Shown here piece after piece: positions 1 through 11,020 of a stretch of 11,020 nucleotides of DNA. Below the pieces are notes generated by a model. That model ran no database searches and had not been told where the DNA came from. It worked only from the letters and a program-made list of their open reading frames with translations. A program made the translations under genes and the position numbers. Source of the DNA: an uncultured Pirellula sp. (GTDB lineage: Bacteria > Planctomycetota > Planctomycetia > Pirellulales > Pirellulaceae); assembly GCA_903837255.1 (NCBI GenBank), contig CAILTZ010000066.1:1-11020 (forward strand), given 5' to 3'. Within the stretch, counting starts at the first letter, position 1, and every line of letters begins with the position of its first letter.

Positions 1-93
1 ATCGCCAAAGCCTTCGAGGAGCAATTGACGTATCCTGGCGAGATCAAGGTTACCGTGGTACGCGAATCCCGGTTTGTCGAAACTGCGCGGTAA
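1..93 (+). CDS. rny: RNase Y, C-terminal end (partial; 5' part lies outside the window)
   Basis: Frame 1 is open from the first base and ends at TAA 91-93, giving 30 residues. It contains [13 protein letters not shown] followed by RFVETAR. This closely matches the conserved tail of RNase Y, whose family consensus ends approximately YPGxIKVTVIRExRAVEYAK. RNase Y is a membrane-anchored endoribonuclease (N-terminal helix, coiled coil, KH domain, HD domain) that starts mRNA decay; only the extreme C-terminus, after the HD domain, is visible here. The last 44 bases are also coding on the opposite strand, for the tail of the 2309-residue envelope protein. The conserved tail is intact, so the gene appears functional at this end. 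Identification rests on a short but characteristic segment. Confidence 0.9.
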
Positions 94-3000
94 TCATCCA
101 GTAGGTATCCATCGCCAAAACCGCGGCCAATAAGGCCGCTAAACTCGGCAGCAGCAAATCGCCTGTAAGCAACCACCATGCTAGTGCAAGACTCAACAGC
201 TGCCACCAAGTGCGATGGTGCAACCATCCCTGATTGCGTCGCCAGAGCCAGGCCAAGCTGAGAAACACCAGTAATGGCAAGAAGCATTGAACCATAATTT
301 CACTGGTAACAGGTTTGAACGATCCGCTTCCGGCTATAGGACTGGTATGTTCTTTGGGAAGGGTGTTCAAATCTATGTTGCCTTCGTGCGGATCGGATCG
401 AATCGTCGAATCCAAGAAATGGCGATAATCAGCAGGGCTAGTCCAAGGCAGTTCGGAGAGAGTCTGTACCCCTGCTGCAAAATCCTCCGAAGATAGCGAT
501 CCAAAAGATGGATGCGAAGCCGAAGCAGCAGCCCAAAGCATCTCTGCGAAACGCCCAGCGCAGTACCTCCACGCTTGGCTTCCATCATCCTTGTTCAGGT
601 TGTTTTGGAGCGTGCTAGTCCAAGCGTCAAATTCGATCTGGACGCTTGCTTGCTGATCGCTCAGCGACGTGGAATTCAAAAGAGATACGACAGATCCCTT
701 GGAAGACGAGCTTGCTAGGTACGGCGACAAATCGCTTTCGAGCGACGAGGAAACACTCGCTACGCTTGCAAACCTTAGCTCGACCTGCGCGATTGTATCC
801 ATGGGCGGATAGTACACTTCGAGGTTCGAACCATCCTGTCGAAATGGATAATACTGACCGTTGACCCAAGCCAATCCACACTTCCAATCAACAGGAACTA
901 TCCACTGCAGCGAACCCTGAGAACTAAGTCCAGGTTGACGCTGTATCCAGAATTCCGACTGAATCGATCCATTGGCTTTCCGCTGGTGCCTTGCAAAAAC
1001 TTGTTGATACCCATCAGCTAGCTTGGGATCACCCTTGTGTTGGATATCCGGCTGGCGGCTCAATGTACCGAGGACCAACTGATCGTCATTAAAACCCAAA
1101 GTCTTTCGAATCAATGAATCCACACTGGCAGAGGTCCCGAGGAGCTGTGAGACACGCATCGCAAGCCCGTTTGACTTTGGAATTGCGATCAAAACATCTT
1201 TCGGTTTTCGGCCGTTGATCTCGATCTGCTCAACCGCTTTAAGATCCACAGCAACCCCAAGCTCGGGTGCTAGATCGATAAGAAAATCATAAGGCCGTCG
1301 GATTTGGTCTTCCGGATTGGCAACCAATGGATCAATCGAGATGATCCGATGGTTCCATCTCAGATCGGTGTATTCCTGGGTGGGGTTCTTGCTCGACCAT
1401 GAGGCCATCGATTCTCTTGGTATCGATAGTTCAATTCCATGCCATGGTTCGTTGGATGCATCCGGTCGTAGTCCGTAGATTTGCAGACCAGGCCCAGAGG
1501 ATTCCTCGGGGAATCGTACCACCAATACCCCGCTCCAGTCAGACGGACATTTCTTCAATGCAATGGGTTTGCGATCGAGTTGTTCTATGCTTCCCTGAAA
1601 GAGTAATCTCTCTGGTCCGCCGCCCTGGATCCCCCAAATATTCGTTAAATCGGATTTCTCTACATCGACGGTCCAGGTGGGGTCGGCTGATAGGAGGAAG
1701 GTTGGTGGGCTTGCCCAGCCGACGGTGGCTTTGAGTTCGGGCAACACAAATTCAAAGGCACTACTATCTGCAATCGACAGTGGTAGCGAATACTCAACGA
1801 CAAACTCGCTGACCGATTCGACTTGGCGGTCGATCAGGATCTGCAAGAAGCTTTTGGAATCCTTAACCCAAGAGAGAAACTCCAGCGATCCGCTTTGAGT
1901 TAGGACTCGATCCACTCGGTAACCCTTTGGAATTTCAAAAGTCAGTTGCGTTTTATTTCCAAAGGGACTATTGAGTTTGATCGTCGTCAATACCCGAGCG
2001 CGATCCGAGGCAAGATGGATCTTGTGGGTTGCAAAGAGCTGCTGGGTCGAGGGGAGCGTTTGTCGTCGCAAAACCCCAAATCCACTGCTCAAAGGAATCC
2101 GAAGATTGGTTGTCAACGGAGGCTCTTTTAGGTCTGGCCAGTCGAGACGCTCTTTTGCGTTGATCGCTGGTATCCAGCTACTGATCCCATCGAGCGTCCA
2201 GAGGGATCCAGGGCTTCGCGCGTAGCGAAAAACCCCTTGACGGACTCGCCGATCACGGCACTCGGCAAAGAGTATGCTCCGAAGCGATGCATCGCCAACA
2301 GGCACCCAGGTCGTTACGATCGATCGCTTCGCATTGGCTTGACCGCCGGTCGGCTGTTCTTCTAAATTCATGGGATTCAATCGGACCGCATAACGGCGAC
2401 GGTCGAGTGTGCTACCTGTTCGGACGTCGAACAAGGTTGCATCGCCCCAGTGAATGCCTATCGGCAGCCATTGCGAATCGGCTTCGATTTCGATGTCGCC
2501 GGCCATGGCTGAAACTCCAGGATATTCAATTACCGTTCTGGCCATAAGTTGATCGCTATCGAGAAATAGTTCTGTATTCATCGTGGGAACATCTGGGCCA
2601 GACGGGGACGGATCGCTGGGCATGGCAAGCAACGGGGAACGATTTCCGGTGGACAATGGAGGTTGAAAGAATCCCTCGATTCGATTTTTGTTCCCAAGTT
2701 GAACGACGCTCCTACCCATCGAAGGGTTCGAAGAGCGTCCGAATGCCGATACGTTCACCGACCAAGCTCCATCGGTCTCGATTTCAAGGACTGCATTCCC
2801 TACCGGCATGACCTCGGTGTCGATGGCCCAAGCTTTGTTCGGATTTTTTTCCCCTGCAATCCCACCACCTGACGAGACGTTGTTGCTCGATAAAAACGTC
2901 CCTAAGGGAATTCCGTTAGGCAGCCCATCGATGCTTCGCAACCTGACCTGAGACTCGATCTGGACCGAGCGGCGACCAGGGCGATCAGGGAACCAAACGA

Positions 3001-6000
3001 GCTCCGTATCCGACTTGCTAAATCGCCCGGATAGAACTTCTACTCCGTCGATGCTAAAGCGACTTAGTTTGAGCGACTCGGCAGGAAACGGGATTCGAAC
3101 AGCTCTGCCGACGGCTGCTTCGCTGATCCATATCTCATAATTGCTCGTCAAAGGCTGGTCGGCGTTTCCAAATCCTAACGAACGGCTGTCCAAACGCAGA
3201 TAGTGCTTGCTCGAGCCGAATAACGCAACGGAGTCTCTCTGACGGCGTTCACGATCCTCCTGCTCAATGAGTTTGAATAGTTCGTCCGGAACGTAGATTG
3301 TTGTTCCAGAGAGTTCGCCTTGGTCCGTGATGGGAATCAATATATCAAAGACTTTCGCGGTCTCATCCAAGGGATCTTGTGAATACCCAGGGTCCGAATG
3401 AGCCAACACCAGAGAGACTAAGCCGATTGGAAAAAAAACTAATGGTAGAACCATGGTTGGCCCGATCCCCTTGGATTCCCCTTTGGGATCCCAAGTGCTC
3501 GAACGGTCCGACCGAATGCTTTGAGAACTGATCATCGTCGCCGGACGAATGATCTGATACAGACGGTATAAAATTCCTCCGCAAGCCAACCCTACAAAGA
3601 CTTGTTGGCACCAGATAGAAAAATCAGCGACAAACCAAAACGAGCCTATCCAGCAACCAACCGCGACAAACATTACAAACCAAGGCCAACGCCGAAAACT
3701 CCCTGCCGAAAAGAACGCCGCAAAAACCATCAGCCAACTCGCATATCTTTCGACCGCCGGTTTGGTCAACAGCAATTCACAACCCTCACCTGCCAGTTCT
3801 GGATTCAAGACCATAGAGCTCCATCTGCCAGGAGGCCCCCTCGGTGAGGCTTGGGGCCTTTGGTCGGTCGCAAGCGGTAGGAGCAACTTCCAAGTCGATT
3901 TTGTCCAGTCCCAAACGGGCCACCAGTTCACCCTCTCTAAACTAGGAACACCGGCGTCGAGGAGGGACAATTTCAAACCTTCGGGGAACCAGACTCGTTG
4001 GATTGGCAGAAATGAATCGATCTGAGCGAATCGGACTTCGGGAAATCGGAACTGCAGTTTTCGACTATTTGCTTGCAGCCCAAGCAGTTGGTTCATCCAT
4101 CCGCTGGTGTCCTTGACCTCATCGGCTTTGGGCCCAATCAACCGAACATGCAAAGTTGTATCTAGTTGAGCATTCAAACCCACGAAACCTAACTGGCCCC
4201 CGAACCCCAACTGAACTCCGAAAACCGACTTGGTAGAAATCGAGGTGCTTTTGAGCAGTACCAATGGAACCTTTCGCTCTCCGGAGATCAGATAGCTGTC
4301 AGCAATGGTCCATCCTTGTGGCAGCTCCACGGTCAATTCACCTTCGGATGAACTCGGGACGACCAATTTCGTCAAAAACTCAGCCGTTTGATTTCCGAAT
4401 CCATCAACAAAAAGATCCAATCGCGAATCGAAGAAAAACGGAGTGGAAATCTGGTACTGATTTGTGTCCAGGATTTCGATGGTACGTAGTGGTCTGGGCC
4501 CGTCCTCCGACGGTGCGTTTTGTGGATCAACGTTAGATTCATAGGAGTAAACGAATGCGGATCCATCCGATTTTGGGTTGACCTGCATTCCATCTGGTCG
4601 CGCAATGATCAATTGCTCCGATAAATTCAATCGGTACGAGATCCGCTTGGCCTCTGCGACCAGCGGTTCAATCATTTCAAAAGTTGGCAGCGTCGAATAG
4701 GTACTCTTGGTTGCAACGAGCGCACGGAGGCTATCGGGTTCCGAGTCAAGCGATAGATTGCTCAGTTGGATGGTCCAAGCCCCAGAATCCGAGTCGAACT
4801 GGGTAGTGATTGGCAAACGCTGTGAACCTTCGTAATGCCATTGAAAGCCTTCAGGCAGCCTCACGCGGACTTGAGAGATGTCGCTCCATTCGGAAGACAA
4901 CAGAAAACGATGTTCAACTCTCCACTGCGCATCGGATCGACGAACTGAGGTTTCGATCGGGATGACCAAGCTATCTTCTAGCGAGGTTGCTACCAGAGGA
5001 GGTAGCTGGTTATCATGGGTCCCAAAAATCAGGGCTCGTACTAGCCTGGGCAGGGAATCCCTTTGCCAAGGAGTCAAATCCTCGTCCGAAAGAACCCATT
5101 GCGCCGTACGACCGCGAAAACTAAGACGGTTATTCGCATTGAGCTCGACATACAAACAGTGACGAATCGTCATGTCGTTCATCGAGAGCCAGGGCATTTG
5201 CCCAAGTTGCAATTCACCGCCACTGTCTAGACTCATGGCTAGCTGAAAATCGAGCGTCGTCTCGGAGCCTAAGAGCTTGTTGGTATCGATTCGAATAGCT
5301 GTTAGGGAATCCTCAATAGTCACAAAATCCAAATTTGCTTGCGGCTTGCACGCGATTGACTTGGGATCCATCTGCCAACCAGCCGGTATGTTGATGTCCT
5401 GAATTCCACGTCCGTTCAACCGAAGAAGTCTCAATCGCACATTGGCGATGCAGCGATCAGCGTCGGTGTTGATTCGAACGATCGACTCAATCTGATTATT
5501 TGCAGCTTGTTTTTCAAGGTTGCAATGAAAGTCGGGGGCATTGCGGTTCCACGAGTATTCCAGGCGGTGCAATCCCTCCGTAGCCCTGCGAACCAACTCG
5601 AGCCTCCCTCGGTCGGGAGCAACTCCGACAAAACGTCCGTCAATCTGATCCTGAAGTATTGTCGTCCCGAATAGAACTGCACCGTTGCTGTTGCGGATAG
5701 CTGGTAGGATCGCATTTCCTGACGCGTCGAGTGGGAGTTCCGCCCAAGGAATCAAAAATTCAGCCGTCATTCGCATGCGCGTGGAACCGCCTAGATTCAG
5801 TCCGAGCATTTCGGGGATGGATACAACAACTCGATTTCCGTCCAAAGACAAGTTGGACTCGCGATCGTTGATCGCAAGAGACCTGAGTTTCATTCCTTGG
5901 GGCAGTTCCAAACGTAGTGGTTGATTAGAACCTCCGGTTTCATTCCATTCCCACTCACCGAGGACGCGCAGTTGGTTAGCGTGGATGGAGTATTGCAACG

Positions 6001-6979
6001 TTTGTTTGGAGAAGAGCCGATCGATTCCCCATTCGGTCGGCATTTGGATTGCCTGTCCACTACCGGGGTTGGATCCGAGTTCGATCGAAAAGGAAATCTT
6101 TTCATTCCCACTGAATTCCAGGACCCAATAGGCATTTTCCAGAGTCGTAGAAAGGCTCGTTCCCAGGTTAGGTTTTCTCTCTGGCCAACCACCCATCCTA
6201 TCGGCCGCTTCCTCCCAGCTTTCGAATCTCCTTATCACGACATTGGATTGCTCAACTCTGGCTGATTTTGGCAACAACAGCACCAAACAGCCGTCGACCG
6301 TCCTCGGGACGAGCGCCTCGTAATTCAATCGATTGGGAGTGCTATCCGAGGTCGGTCTCAGCGACCAGCGTATCCAAGCTTCGTCGCCTATGCGTTGCAA
6401 AAGAGGATTGCCTGTCGAATCGAAAACCCAAGTAGGGGAGGTGTTTGCATCGGATTCCCCTTTTTTTTCGGAAGAACTTTCTGAGGGACCGCGAGGGTTG
6501 GGCGGGCTTTGCGAATTATTCAATTCGTCGGAACTATTCTCGATGGCTAGATTCCAGGGAGTCAAGCGTTCTCGGGCAGTTGTCTCCGACTGAATTTTCG
6601 AAAGTGTCTTCAATGGTTTCGACCAAATAAGATGCGTGCGCTCCGAGAGCAATTCGGCTCCGACCAACTGGGCCACCGCATGAAAGGACCTAAGGTTCTG
6701 AGCGGAGGAGTTCCAAGGGTCGATCGATTCGCTATTGCGACGGATAAGTCGATCCAGAGCCCCGGGAAGCCGATCGATCTCCAAGGGGCGGAGATTATCA
6801 ACGGGTAGATTTGGCAGTTGCGAATCAAGCACAAAAATACGTCGAAACGGTCGCTCAGCCATCGCCTGGTCAGAACGATCGGACGCGGAGGGCTCCGGCC
6901 TCTGCCCAAACAGTTCGCCCACCGAAAAAGCTTGTAAAAAAATCATTGCAATCGCAACAGCAACCCAGACGCACTTCAT
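50..6979 (-). CDS. Giant two-module envelope protein (2309 aa), unknown function
   Basis: No known function is recognised. The start is ATG 6979, chosen because AGGGAG lies 5 nt upstream and a signal peptide follows (hydrophobic residues 4-20, small residues after). Module A (about 1-1148) has a Ser/Pro/Asn-rich linker at 148-184, a long ectodomain rich in alternating-hydrophobic strands, and three membrane helices near 1079-1095, 1099-1118 and 1122-1142. A basic segment (1143-1172) follows, then a signal-peptide-like helix at 1173-1194. Module B (about 1195-2222) is a second ectodomain opening with IYVPDELF (1228-1235). It ends with helices near 2228-2247, 2258-2273 and 2274-2295 and a basic tail. 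Predicted topology puts both ectodomains outside and the linker and tail inside. It is translationally coupled to the upstream 1249-aa gene by ATGA. The last 14 residues overlap rny antisense. Fusion of two genes like the neighbour is inferred from the repeated layout. The ORF is certain; the function is not. Confidence 0.88.
92..304 (-). other. Three-helix membrane cassette of module B (C-terminus)
   Basis: Codons 2226-2296 encode three hydrophobic stretches (about 2228-2247, 2258-2273, 2274-2295). The first is followed by a basic, Trp-rich turn ([16 protein letters not shown]), comparable in position and composition to the RWPWF turn of the other two cassettes but not identical. The residues after it are those that overlap rny. 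Confidence 0.6.
123..139. other. Perfect GC-only hairpin just after rny
   Basis: GCGGCC (123-128), loop AATAA, GGCCGC (134-139) forms a 6-bp all-GC stem 29 nt after the rny stop codon. It could help end or protect the rny transcript, but no T-tract follows, so it is not a standard intrinsic terminator. On the minus strand it is inside the coding region of the 2309-residue gene. Confidence 0.4.
3398..3463 (-). other. Internal signal-peptide-like helix joining modules A and B
   Basis: Codons 1173-1194 encode a hydrophobic stretch beginning [14 protein letters not shown] and ending VLAHS, followed by a polar exported-type sequence. It resembles a signal peptide lying in the middle of the 2309-residue protein. 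It directly follows the three-helix cassette of module A and a basic 30-residue segment. After three helices the chain should be in the cytoplasm, so this helix would return it outside and act as a start-transfer segment for module B. Confidence 0.65.
3554..3748 (-). other. Three-helix membrane cassette of module A
   Basis: Codons 1078-1142 encode three closely spaced hydrophobic helices. RWPWF (1097-1101) lies at the start of the second helix and LY (1137-1138) in the third. The distance from RWPWF to LY is 40 residues, against 39 in the equivalent cassette of the upstream protein, which supports common descent. Confidence 0.7.
6976..6979 (-). other. ATGA stop-start overlap (translational coupling)
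   Basis: The ATG of the 2309-residue gene and the TGA of the upstream gene share 4 bp. Such overlaps usually allow terminating ribosomes to re-initiate, which would keep the two products in proportion. This supports a single operon with a shared function. Confidence 0.8.
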
Positions 6980-9900
6980 TGAGGCTCCCTGACATTGGCG
7001 GTTACGGTGGACTGGAACGCCGAGGAATCACCTGCGGTTTTCTTTGCAATATTTGCTCCTGCCATGGACTTGGGTGATATCGTGGCGGGTGTGTATTGCC
7101 GCGTGACGAAAATGCTACGTCGTCGGGCTCGTCGATCCATGACCCACCTGGCCAATGCATAAAGCATCGCCAAAGCAACCGATACGACTGCGGCTTGAAG
7201 CACTAACAGGGAAACATCCCAAGCGATCTGCGAAAAGATAAAAAAGCTACCCAGGAACAAAGCCCAAAACCAAGGCCAACGAATCCAGCGGTTGTCTTTG
7301 AGGACGACCGCCAACAATAAGACGATCAGCGAGACAGGGAGCCAAATCAACGCGCTGGGCACAAAGGTAGCTTCGAGTGGCTGCGTCGATGCGATGCTGG
7401 TTAGATCGTATTGATTGATTTGCTGGGCCAAGATGGGTTGCCGGGTAGCCCCGAAGCGTTCCTCCAATTGCTCTTGATCGGTCGTGCCTACTCGACGGAA
7501 AAACAAGTCGCTCCAACGCCACTGATACATAGGCAGGGTGTTTTTCGTGCTTGCAACGAGATGCTCAGTGCGAGGAACGATGATTTGCCAAACCATCGGA
7601 GCACTCGATGGATTTCGCGAAAGCCTAGGTCCAATCGGCTGGACTTTTCGAAACCAACCCTTGGGTGCCGCTTGGGTCGCGAAGACCTCGAGCACATGGG
7701 TATCAGAATTCGTCGAATCGCCTTCCTCGGGAATCGCGACTATCGCGTAGCCTTTCGATTCGGAATCCTCGCGAATCACCGCACGCTGTCCATCAATCAT
7801 CCATTCCGCATCCCTGATCAGTTCCGGTGTAATCGGTATCCGTAGCATCCGCTGATCGGTCTGGAAACGAGCAACGTAACGATCGCGTTGCTCGATAGCG
7901 TTGACGATCGTTTGCACCCATTCACCGTCGAGCCTGAGCGAGGATTTCACTTCGTTTGCACGACGCATCGCGATGATCGAGATCCGTGGATCGTTGGGAT
8001 CGATCTCATGGGCTCCAGTGTTCGTGCCTGTCGGGAGGCTCAAGCTAAAACTCGATGTGCTCTGGATCCGCAGCTCGGCTTGATCAATACTCAATTGCTC
8101 TTGCTCACGAGCCGAAGTTAACCTCGCCACACCTAAATCGAGCAAGACTTGATCTCCAGGCTTATCGAGAGATCGATGAGCCGTCGCATATTTTGCTTCT
8201 ATCAGGAAATCAAGTCGATTGCTACCGTCAACCGCCACTTCTGGAACGATTAACTTGGCCCATCGCATTCCCTGTGATTGGCTGGAATCATCAGCAATCC
8301 ATTCGATGGCAACCGGACGATTGTCGATCGAGACAGATAGCTCTCGACCCGATTGCTCTGGGTTCGAACCAATCGATTCGAGTGGAAAACCGAGACGAAG
8401 TTCGGTTGGCCTGCTCCCTAAACACTTGCAGTCCCACCGCAGATCCCATTCGATCGTATCCTTTGTCGGTGATACACTGGCGATCAAGCTGGCCGAGACA
8501 AAAGAGCCTTTTCTCGTTCGTTGTCCAGTCCAACGGCAAGCACTCGAGCCATCGGCGATCCCGTACTGCATCAAGAAGGGAGTGGCTCCAAAATTATTGA
8601 CTATCAACTGCTTTTGAAAAGTTCTATCTAGCGAAGTTTCAACTAAACCGGATAGATCGCTCGAGCCAGAGCTGAGCCGATAGGGCCAACTGTAGAGAAT
8701 CATGCGCCCGGGGGGAGTGCGTACGATCCTTTGCTGGGTCTCCTGGGATAACCAGGACAATCTCGGCAGGGAAAAAGCTATCTCATTGGATTGGGACGGT
8801 AATTGGCGACTCAGCAAATACTCCAATCTCCAAGCTTGGACGGCCTCTTTTTTCTCGGTTGAATTTGCAATGATCTCAAAGGGATTTCCGAGCCCCAGCC
8901 CGCCCAAGCCAACTTCGCCGCCTCGCTCGCTGCGAACACTTTCAGATTGCGTCGGGCGGGCGGACATTGCACTTCGGATCCAAAGATTGGCGTTGATCGG
9001 AAGAGACCAAACGCTTTCGGGATTTTCAACCGTCGGCTGCCCAACGCTTGGGACCGAATCCAGGGGTACATCCACCTCCGATGGATAGAGGACGATGCGC
9101 TCGGGTTTCCATCCTTCGACTTCCAATTCCAGCAGTGGCAACTGAATCGGGTCGCTTCCGAATTCGATCGCACCCCTGAGGAGTATACGATTCTCACGAA
9201 TCTCCACACGTTGCTCGGAGAGCATGCGAGGGCGCTGGGCTACGGTGGTCCACTGAGTCGCGATCTTGGCCGGTTGCCCATCGAATTGAAAGGAGTAGAC
9301 GATCGACTCGCTGCCGTCGGCAGCTTGCGATTGCCTTGATAATTGAATAGCTCCGGTTGGACTCCAATCGATCGAGTTGGTCCGAGGAATCGCAAATTCA
9401 ATGGTTCCACCATGCCGCTCGACACCTTCCAGATAAGGTGCTTCAAAGCGCACCTGAGGATCGCCAGGCGATCGGGACAATTGCCATTCGAGGTTCAAAT
9501 CCAATTCGGTACGGCTGTAAGCTTCATCGATTTCAATCCACCAGTTTTCCGAAGGCTTTTCCTGGGTTAAAGTCGCAGGATCGGGCACGGCGGTTGTCGA
9601 TTCGGGTTCGTTTTTTCCAGCACCAGAATTGGATCGCTTGTCTCGAACCAATCGATAATTCGCAAAGTTGATTACGCTCGAGTTGGCTTCGCGCACAAGC
9701 CCCTGCGGGGGCAGGTTCCAGAGAATTTGCTTACCACCGAGTTTGATAGGACCGCGTATCGATAGAGCTGTGTCCGCCCGCCAACGATTCGCATCCCCAT
9801 AGGGAGAGTATTTGGTCTGGCTTCGAACCTCAATAGCCGCAATCGCTTCTCGGGTCGCCTTTCGAGTCCAAGTCATATTGATCGAGTTTGAAGAAGTTCT

Positions 9901-10725
9901 TATCGTCGCGACGGAATACTCGCCTTGGACCTGGAACGGTTCGATGACTTCGTTGCCACCACCCGTGGCATTCAACTCCCAATCACCCTTTGGCAACCTG
10001 AGCTTGATGACCGTGGCTGCAGGTGGCAAATCCAACCGGAGTGATGTTCCGCTTGCGGAAGTGACGAGCTTGCATACCGACGCGAGTTCCAGTCGCCGCT
10101 GCAGGGACTTGCTAGGACCCAACCGCCACAGATACCCGTTGGATTGGGCAGCCGTTGCGATGCTCTCGACTCCATCGGCCTGCACGTCGGCACTCGATTG
10201 GCTGGGGATCCATTGCAACTGACTCAGTGCGATCGGCACCGTCCATGTCGTCCGATTGGACTTCTTCATGGCGATCAATCCCCGCAACTGTACCTTGGCA
10301 TAATCAGAAACCGGCTCAATGACCAAATCGAGCTGCGTTAAACTCGGGGTGACTGCAAGCCCTTCTCCCCCAAGGTCCGTCTCCATCAAGAGTCTTTCGA
10401 AATCTTCGTACCGCGTTCTGGGTACTAGGATCTCCTCACCTTTATCATTCCGCATGTACATCAAGTCAGGGAGCACTCCGGGCCCCACCACTCGGGGAAG
10501 GTTCTCCGGAGGCATCATTCCGCTTGCTGGCCCGTTGGAAGGCGGGTCTTGGGCACAGATCGACCTTGCAAGTACTCCGCAAAAAAACACGGTTAGGAAA
10601 ATCGCGACGAACCAACGCCGAACGGCGAGTTTGAACGCGATTGAGCCCAGGCCGCACCGCGACTCTGCTGCCTGTTTAAAACGCAGGTTTTCCTGTAAAT
10701 TTCTGTCGCGTCCTGTCCTAGACAC
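6976..10725 (-). CDS. Large exported membrane-anchored protein (about 1249 aa), single-module paralogue of its neighbour
   Basis: No known function is recognised. The frame has a stop at 10773-10775, then GTG codons at 10764 and 10725 and no ATG before the signal peptide. GTG 10725 is preferred because AGGGGA lies 7 nt upstream; GTG 10764 would add 13 residues and lacks a good ribosome site. Numbering from 10725: a long polar n-region (1-37), a hydrophobic core about 38-52 and likely cleavage near 58 (SICA then Q). The motif ILVPRTRYEDFE starts at 99. An ectodomain rich in predicted beta strands runs to about 1120, with a Ser/Pro/Glu linker at 361-394 and a Gly-Leu run near 606-613. Three membrane helices follow (about 1124-1142, 1151-1168, 1171-1193), then a cytoplasmic tail starting RRARRR (1198-1203). 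RWPWF at 1149-1153 recurs in module A of the downstream protein. It is the first gene of the operon; its TGA overlaps the next ATG. Exact start is uncertain. Confidence 0.85.
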   Translation of the reverse strand: MSRTGRDRNLQENLRFKQAAESRCGLGSIAFKLAVRRWFVAIFLTVFFCGVLARSICAQDPPSNGPASGMMPPENLPRVVGPGVLPDLMYMRNDKGEEILVPRTRYEDFERLLMETDLGGEGLAVTPSLTQLDLVIEPVSDYAKVQLRGLIAMKKSNRTTWTVPIALSQLQWIPSQSSADVQADGVESIATAAQSNGYLWRLGPSKSLQRRLELASVCKLVTSASGTSLRLDLPPAATVIKLRLPKGDWELNATGGGNEVIEPFQVQGEYSVATIRTSSNSINMTWTRKATREAIAAIEVRSQTKYSPYGDANRWRADTALSIRGPIKLGGKQILWNLPPQGLVREANSSVINFANYRLVRDKRSNSGAGKNEPESTTAVPDPATLTQEKPSENWWIEIDEAYSRTELDLNLEWQLSRSPGDPQVRFEAPYLEGVERHGGTIEFAIPRTNSIDWSPTGAIQLSRQSQAADGSESIVYSFQFDGQPAKIATQWTTVAQRPRMLSEQRVEIRENRILLRGAIEFGSDPIQLPLLELEVEGWKPERIVLYPSEVDVPLDSVPSVGQPTVENPESVWSLPINANLWIRSAMSARPTQSESVRSERGGEVGLGGLGLGNPFEIIANSTEKKEAVQAWRLEYLLSRQLPSQSNEIAFSLPRLSWLSQETQQRIVRTPPGRMILYSWPYRLSSGSSDLSGLVETSLDRTFQKQLIVNNFGATPFLMQYGIADGSSACRWTGQRTRKGSFVSASLIASVSPTKDTIEWDLRWDCKCLGSRPTELRLGFPLESIGSNPEQSGRELSVSIDNRPVAIEWIADDSSQSQGMRWAKLIVPEVAVDGSNRLDFLIEAKYATAHRSLDKPGDQVLLDLGVARLTSAREQEQLSIDQAELRIQSTSSFSLSLPTGTNTGAHEIDPNDPRISIIAMRRANEVKSSLRLDGEWVQTIVNAIEQRDRYVARFQTDQRMLRIPITPELIRDAEWMIDGQRAVIREDSESKGYAIVAIPEEGDSTNSDTHVLEVFATQAAPKGWFRKVQPIGPRLSRNPSSAPMVWQIIVPRTEHLVASTKNTLPMYQWRWSDLFFRRVGTTDQEQLEERFGATRQPILAQQINQYDLTSIASTQPLEATFVPSALIWLPVSLIVLLLAVVLKDNRWIRWPWFWALFLGSFFIFSQIAWDVSLLVLQAAVVSVALAMLYALARWVMDRRARRRSIFVTRQYTPATISPKSMAGANIAKKTAGDSSAFQSTVTANVREPQ
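6985..6990 (-). promoter_or_regulatory. Ribosome binding site of the 2309-residue gene
   Basis: AGGGAG on the minus strand sits 5 nt before ATG 6979, inside the final codons of the upstream gene. Combined with the ATGA stop/start overlap at 6976-6979, it supports both the start choice and coupled translation of the two envelope proteins. Confidence 0.6.
7147..7359 (-). other. Three-helix membrane cassette of the upstream protein
   Basis: This region encodes three hydrophobic helices with NRWIRWPWF between the first and second and LYALARW in the third, followed by a strongly basic tail (RRARRR). The basic tail fits a cytoplasmic C-terminus by the positive-inside rule, leaving the large ectodomain outside the membrane. 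Confidence 0.7.
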
Positions 10726-10732
10726 CCATGCT

Positions 10733-10738
10733 TCCCCT
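10733..10738 (-). promoter_or_regulatory. Ribosome binding site that favours GTG 10725
   Basis: The minus strand reads AGGGGA, then 7 nt, then GTG at 10725. This is the only good Shine-Dalgarno match near the possible starts of the 1249-residue gene. The longer start, GTG 10764, has only a weak GGA upstream. The call assumes SD-led initiation, which is not universal in planctomycetes. Confidence 0.5.
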
Positions 10739-10811
10739 GGTGCGTGTATCGGCGATCGAACCACCGTTCCATTTTAGACATATGGCCAACCGTTAGCCGG
10801 TATTTTAGCTG

Positions 10812-10942: not shown

Positions 10943-10990
10943 TCGTACTGTCTGTCGTACTGTCTGTCGTACTGCCTGTCGTACTCTCTG
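10943..10990. repeat. Four-copy 12-bp tandem repeat
   Basis: The unit TCGTACTGTCTG occurs at 10943, 10955, 10967 and 10979. The first two copies are identical; the third and fourth each carry one substitution (TCGTACTGCCTG and TCGTACTCTCTG). The period is a multiple of three. The array lies in the intergenic region upstream of the operon. There are no spacers, so it is not CRISPR. It may be a regulatory iteron-like array, or part of the leader or N-terminus of a plus-strand gene beyond the window. Confidence 0.9.
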
Positions 10991-11020
10991 TCCCGATCCG
11001 AACCTTCATGCTGCGATTGA

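Follow-up and report, generated by a model that had tools for sequence, protein, structure and literature searches.

Homologous modules in a giant two-gene, putative envelope locus of planctomycetes and its possible link to a sigma factor

What do two giant, overlapping genes on a short planctomycete contig encode, and how are they related to each other? The window, by which we mean the whole 11,020-nucleotide stretch analyzed here, is the entire contig CAILTZ010000066.1 (C66) of an uncultured Pirellula sp. genome (GCA_903837255.1, G000; 912 contigs totaling 4.64 Mb, with an estimated completeness of 83%). Two open reading frames (ORFs) on the minus strand, which is also the strand of all their parts described below, span 50..10764: P1 (6976..10764; GTG start, 1262 residues) and P2 (50..6979; ATG start, 2309 residues, with homologs P0036–P0064). 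The P1 stop and the P2 start share the four nucleotides ATGA (6976..6979), as read from the sequence. The original prediction, made from the DNA letters alone, had correctly described two coupled giant genes here, with about 1250 codons for the smaller. The P1 start is unsure because the closest homolog, P0001 from a metagenome-assembled genome named Pirellula sp. (95% identity), is 26 residues shorter. We find that P1 and the two halves of P2, modules A and B, are homologous to one another, and we tentatively propose that they are subunits of one envelope complex.

An ancient triplication had been predicted for these modules, with profile–profile comparison named as the means of checking it. 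We ran this comparison with hhalign on order-wide profiles of 74 P1 rows and 60 P2 rows. P1 matches A with a probability of 99.8 (E 1.2e-27, 972 columns) and B with a probability of 99.2 (E 3.5e-19), and A matches B with a probability of 99.3 (E 1.4e-20). The best alignments are collinear across 780–972 columns (module order P1, A, B), and the three ectodomains taken alone are still mutually significant (probability 98.3–99.4). Because 21 controls with reversed, column-shuffled or block-shuffled targets reach E 0.0041 at best, these matches lie beyond chance. Profiles built from the genus only give a clear match for P1–A (E 7.8e-6) and leave P1–B (0.11) and A–B (0.0036) not beyond the best of the later controls, so the three-way homology depends on the wider sampling.

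The same relationship is met directly in other genomes. Profile A5, made from the first ∼445 residues of P1 in 24 P1 rows from the class and order, matches both halves of P2 in G087 at 2.3e-35 and 4.2e-39 and, within the order, at 1.9e-18 and 4.7e-12 (L087) and at 8.5e-19 and 1.9e-16 (L095). A5 does not match the window's own P2, and the link between the window's P1 and P2 modules therefore runs through relatives. We also built a tree from the N-terminal regions (caps and first repeats) of 67 modules at 26 chosen loci, with labels assigned by gene order and the window's own A and B left out. On this tree P1, A and B as labels require 3, 2 and 5 changes, versus shuffled means of 18.0, 18.0 and 15.3; 23 of its 64 inner branches are weak, and the B regions of L213 and L217 stand beside A rows. 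The modules thus appear to group largely by position and not by locus. The simplest account is that a single triplication preceded the divergence of the sampled lineages and that A and B were joined into one gene afterwards, which supports the ancient triplication of the original prediction.

Hydrophobic stretches were called by a 19-residue Kyte–Doolittle scan. In P1 this gives a signal stretch (residues 52–70; 10555..10611), an ectodomain of ∼1065 residues between it and the first helix (72–1136; 7357..10551), a membrane cassette (1137–1204; 7153..7356) with helices at 1137–1155, 1163–1181 and 1186–1204, and a short tail, which bears out the predicted signal peptide, long ectodomain and three helices. 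Module A of P2 (residues 1–1165; 3485..6979) has a signal stretch at residues 3–21 (6917..6973) and a membrane cassette at 1080–1144 (3548..3742; scan and alignment) with RWPWF at residue 1097. An internal signal-like helix (1175–1193; 3401..3457) then leads into module B and may be the former module B signal peptide, retained as an internal helix. The module B ectodomain (1195–2226; 302..3397) is followed by a membrane cassette called from the scan only (2228–2290; 110..298). The larger protein had been said to show the order of the smaller one twice; the order does repeat, but the scan shows two clear helices at each P2 module end (1100–1118 and 1116–1144 in A, the latter made up of several overlapping peaks; 2228–2246 and 2270–2288 in B) versus three in P1, and the third, which in module A is the first of the cassette, was placed only by eye. 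By profile comparison the cassettes of P1 and A are homologous (probability 95.4%, E 1.9e-8), and the B cassette matches neither of them (46.7% with P1, 3.8% with A).

The motifs that had been quoted as shared are all present. In the profile alignments two pairs coincide residue for residue: the P1 cap motif ILVPRTRYEDFE (residues 112–123; 10396..10431; class consensus VPnfsYEEFerlL) with module B residues 1228–1239 (3263..3298), and RWPWF of P1 (1162) with RWPWF of P2 (1097). The W-rich pair is in register as well: QWRWSDLFFRR of P1 (1081–1091; 7492..7524; class consensus YrWrWqgLfWsR) aligns on P2 1022–1032, four residues into the W/P-rich segment of module A that starts at 1018. In the consensus drawn from 65 P1 rows, the cap carries a VP...YEEF motif, and the final part comprises a W-rich stretch, hydrophobic helices and a turn rich in arginine. 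Chou–Fasman propensities do not establish a "beta-rich" fold: averaged over the alignments they are 0.23–0.28 strand-like versus 0.16–0.23 helix-like, but the P1 ectodomain as a single sequence scores 0.25 strand and 0.29 helix. Three neighbor proteins treated as single sequences score 0.24–0.29 strand and 0.40–0.54 helix.

How widely is the pair kept? A single-sequence search finds P1 relatives in 57 of the 60 nearest genomes, the window's own included, and profile A5 matches 178 of 198 genomes of the class. Across a phylum sample of 148 genomes, 50 match A5, 16 in the class and 34 among the 132 outside it; no class genome is among the misses, judged by list order. With P2 as a single sequence, matches across the order came from 27 of 60 genomes, every one of them a member of the genus. 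Gene order nevertheless ties the two genes together well beyond the genus, in line with the conserved synteny for which the original prediction had suggested a survey. At 38 of 40 order loci a long same-strand ORF (up to 2962 residues, some ending at the end of the stretch) lies directly behind P1, and L071 and L074 gave no P1–P2 pair by the ORF caller; quoted ORF lengths may be too long because this caller picks the furthest upstream start. Of the 72 loci from the class, order and genus, 68 allowed the junction to be tested. In 67 of these 68 an open frame of 600 codons or more starts between −40 and +150 nucleotides from the P1 stop, L165 being the exception, and in 42 of the 68 a start on the P2 side sits at exactly the four-nucleotide overlap. 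The caller made no module call in L157, L203 and L208.

The arrangement also varies in ways that bear on the modules as units. Two loci outside the class, L199 and L200, carry three separate single-module genes in a row. Five genomes, of which four belong to one family (G091, G118, G079, G132) and the fifth is G101, carry two paralogous P1–P2 pairs each, with P2 proteins of ∼2660–2860 and ∼1980–2440 residues; by locus these are L138/L150, L142/L152, L143/L154, L141/L155 and L148/L166. At L161 and L162 (family f23) the P1 profile matches genes of 609 residues next to one of 1680, and genes of 498 and 1596 residues, and the modules there seem to be split or extended differently. L209, L210 and L211 have a VWA gene and, immediately after it, a two-module protein of ∼2140–2210 residues, with no separate P1 seen.

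A clue to function comes from outside the class, where we read the neighborhood from 20 loci, one each from 20 of the 34 matching genomes, chosen for varied gene sizes. A gene of the VWA/YfbK type lies directly upstream of the modules in 9 of them. In 8 of these 9 an extracytoplasmic function (ECF) sigma gene precedes the VWA gene, and the contig of the ninth starts inside the VWA gene. The same loci supplied the search queries (5 of the 9 for VWA, 4 for sigma). Of the 34 outside-class genomes with the family, 11 have a YfbK_C match adjoining the modules on one contig; YfbK_C occurs anywhere in 30 of these 34 genomes, versus 41 of the 98 in which the family was not matched (Fisher p 2e-6). A YfbK_C match is also found on another contig of the window's genome. 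For planctomycetes and other phyla, vWA proteins of the YfbK-like kind, tethered to the inner membrane, have been proposed to act as force transducers (PMC12204202).

Several observations weigh against a sensing role built on this association. The Fisher test ignores kinship, and 98 of the 132 outside-class genomes give no match to the family. The zf-HC2 anti-sigma domain is above the cut-off in two of four scanned VWA proteins, reaches 18.6 of the required 22.2 bits in the third and is absent from the fourth. At the 72 class, order and genus loci no VWA gene is found, as far as the stretches reach. Among the 16 class genomes in the phylum sample that have the family, only 5 have YfbK_C, and 14 of 60 relatives have no YfbK_C match, among them G027, G028, G031 and G032, all of which have P1. 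Conversely, ten VWA loci examined in the order have no module genes, and a sigma gene is adjacent in five of them. We therefore rejected the VWA protein as an obligate part of the system in the order, given these 14 relatives and ten loci. More broadly, the sensor role is not obligate in the window's class, where no VWA gene lies within the stretches read at the loci and YfbK_C is patchy. Neither P1 nor P2 itself contains a VWA, YfbK_C or zf-HC2 domain by Pfam.

Taking these points together, our preferred reading, which we hold tentatively and at somewhat less than even chances, is that P1, A and B are paralogous subunits of one inner-membrane complex with periplasmic repeat arms, an envelope scaffold and sensor that was ancestrally wired to the sigma/VWA genes. 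The three arms would be strings of ∼175-residue repeats behind a conserved cap, standing in the periplasm, a placement suggested by the signal stretch before and the helices after each arm. Coupled translation would deliver the subunits in equal amounts for assembly as one complex, as is suggested by the overlap and strict pairing of the genes; that P1, A and B assemble together is plausible on this basis. The arms would bind a partner in the envelope. Ancestrally, an anti-sigma protein spanning the membrane would have read the state of the arms through its VWA domain and freed the sigma factor; the way the sigma and VWA genes are arranged suggests that transcription responds to the state of the complex in at least some lineages outside the class, and perhaps did so ancestrally. 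In the window's class the scaffold would have been kept with the sensor genes unlinked or lost, and as no sensor genes are linked to it there, a structural role must suffice. The original prediction spoke of surface proteins. The membrane helices that end each module, together with a LysM domain in the homolog P0069, which would fit a place near peptidoglycan, agree better with an inner-membrane-anchored periplasmic location. The three-subunit organization, the separate genes outside the class and the sigma/VWA link make concretely testable predictions, for which Planctopirus limnophila offers a tractable laboratory strain.

A rival account, unlikely but well worth keeping in view, is that the three arms form an envelope assembly or transport machine, that is, a periplasmic conduit or chaperone for a glycan, a lipid or an outer-membrane protein, and sense nothing. 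Occurrence in 178 of 198 class genomes is what a housekeeping machine would show, and the modules are kept without linked sigma or VWA genes. Neighboring genes can be read the same way. Upstream of P1, and on its strand, 21 of the 29 order loci outside the genus have a gene of the inositol-monophosphatase family (PF00459), as do 8 of the 32 loci read class-wide. In L149, L150, L151, L155 and L167 an HtrA-like protease gene (trypsin and PDZ domains by Pfam on L149) is convergent downstream of P2. However, none of the 11 genus loci has the phosphatase gene, which may be a bystander, and no ATPase or transporter is found among the recurrent neighbors named by Pfam, most neighbor clusters lacking an identification. 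P1 and P2 also have no family match that would point to such a machine.

Surface adhesins are a considerably less probable explanation. Adhesins are commonly large proteins with tandem repeats, as these are, and planctomycetes are described as attaching and forming rosettes. However, helices end each module and another separates A from B, which probably ties the arms to the inner membrane; no Pfam family was found; and the genes are fixed pairs through most of the class, whereas adhesin repertoires are not typically class-wide fixed pairs.

More improbable still is that no whole module was ever triplicated and that the likeness comes only from shared ∼175-residue repeats, joined independently in each module. 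Such repeats, which form the arms in our preferred reading as well, do recur in the modules. The repeat profile, after three rounds, gives 616 matches across 164 proteins, and the 222 modules or halves with a match hold three repeats in 99 cases, two in 54, four in 46, one in 22 and five in 1. The window itself has a single detected repeat in P1 (residues 400–564; 9073..9567; E 4.6e-21) and a single one in P2, in module A (residues 550–714; 4838..5332; E 3.2e-6). Off-register self-matches between repeats within modules reach E 6.7e-10, and the failure of the module B cassette to align also speaks for this reading. Against this stand the collinear alignments with cap motifs in register, the alignment of the P1 and A cassettes, and a tree that groups caps and first repeats largely by position.

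A more specific version of the envelope-complex proposal is a long shot. Crateriform structures in a large and a small form connect the outer and inner membranes in planctomycetes, and the accessible portions of the source (PMC5394234) mention no protein assigned to them. P1, A and B could conceivably be the inner-membrane and periplasmic part of such "press-stud" connections, with two paralogous operons for the large and the small (stalk-pole) structures; class-wide spread, size, triplicate arms and a second operon are compatible with the idea and show nothing for it.

The remaining features of the locus are of local interest. The 3′ end of a convergent RNase Y gene (rny), encoding its last 30 residues, occupies 1..93 on the plus strand and overlaps the end of P2 by 44 nucleotides (50–93). 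Compared with the RNase Y proteins of two genus relatives, 27 and 28 of these 30 residues are identical. Synteny with rny, which the original prediction had suggested as something to survey, is seen in 6 of 11 genus loci, two of the other five genus stretches ending inside P2, and at one further locus, L166. Seven loci share a GNAT acetyltransferase gene behind P2 (identified by Pfam on one), and a gene of ∼249 residues (L067:14398-15144), without a Pfam match in L067, lies upstream of P1 in 13 loci, mostly on the opposite strand. The contig stops 256 nucleotides upstream of P1; within this segment, ∼180 nucleotides upstream of the P1 start, the 12-base tandem repeat TCGTACTGTCTG occurs in four copies with 92% matches (10943–10992). 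Neither a tRNA nor, at gathering scores, an Rfam family was found in the window.

Does the family belong to anything already described? No window protein matches Pfam or NCBIfam above any cut-off, the scores below it being 15.2 of 29 bits for DUF5693, 10.3 of 28 for LapA_dom, 12.5 of 42 for SA1362 and 12.7 of 22.9 for BsuPI. PHROGs and PADLOC, searched for phage and anti-phage defense families, give no match at all, and the earlier statement that no enzyme motif is present holds as far as these searches extend. Pfam searches on 78 repeat copies hit six families, each in one member and at 0.0011 at best, which we take as chance. Close relatives are named hypothetical proteins where they are named. 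The exception is P0024, labeled "VTT domain-containing", and Pfam does not bear this label out for the window's proteins. In the open-licence literature, judged by titles and abstract openings, we found no publication on the family, nor, in what was read there, any protein assigned to planctomycete envelope structures of the unusual kinds. The P1–P2 family thus appears to lie outside every curated family searched, and a known fold might yet lie beneath the repeats. A ∼10.7 kb gene pair whose first member occurs through most of a class, and which the searched families do not describe, is a sizeable gap in what is understood of planctomycete cells.

Comparison with known systems begins with the most distant homologs. 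P0067–P0072 match by profile at E 1e-71 to 1e-8; several have a cap motif of similar pattern (by eye), their repeats align, and one is named as from Myxococcota. They differ in size (602–2329 residues) and carry no family name, P0070 and P0072 have no hydrophobic stretch above the scan threshold, and P0072 has CarboxypepD_reg domains in the way that P0069 has its LysM domain. Annotated context outside the phylum is lacking because a search of plasmid records with P0070 and P0067 gave no match. Among PDB sequences searched by profile, modules A and B, the repeat and the cap give nothing credible, and P1 gives one weak match, of one stretch to about residues 21–121 in the N-terminal domain of an M1 aminopeptidase (leukotriene A4 hydrolase). 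We rejected this identity, as the match is non-significant (E 0.083), does not appear with the repeat or cap profile, and leaves the peptidase part of M1 aminopeptidases not found in P1. The YfbK-type VWA proteins with ECF sigma factors (PF12034 and PF00092, with zf-HC2, PF13490, in some) come nearest in genomic context, since they adjoin the modules in several lineages outside the class, but P1 and P2 hold none of their domains and the VWA gene is absent from the 72 class, order and genus loci. The vWA force transducers of Planctomycetes–Verrucomicrobia–Chlamydiae (PVC) bacteria share the YfbK-like VWA fold and an inner-membrane tether and occur in planctomycetes. The paper that describes them ties them to tolQ/tolR-like motor genes, and giant module proteins are not mentioned in the accessible part of that report (PMC12204202). 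If the sensor reading is true, P1 and P2 would name a likely partner for the planctomycete YfbK-type VWA proteins, whose function is described there, in the same portions, as unknown.

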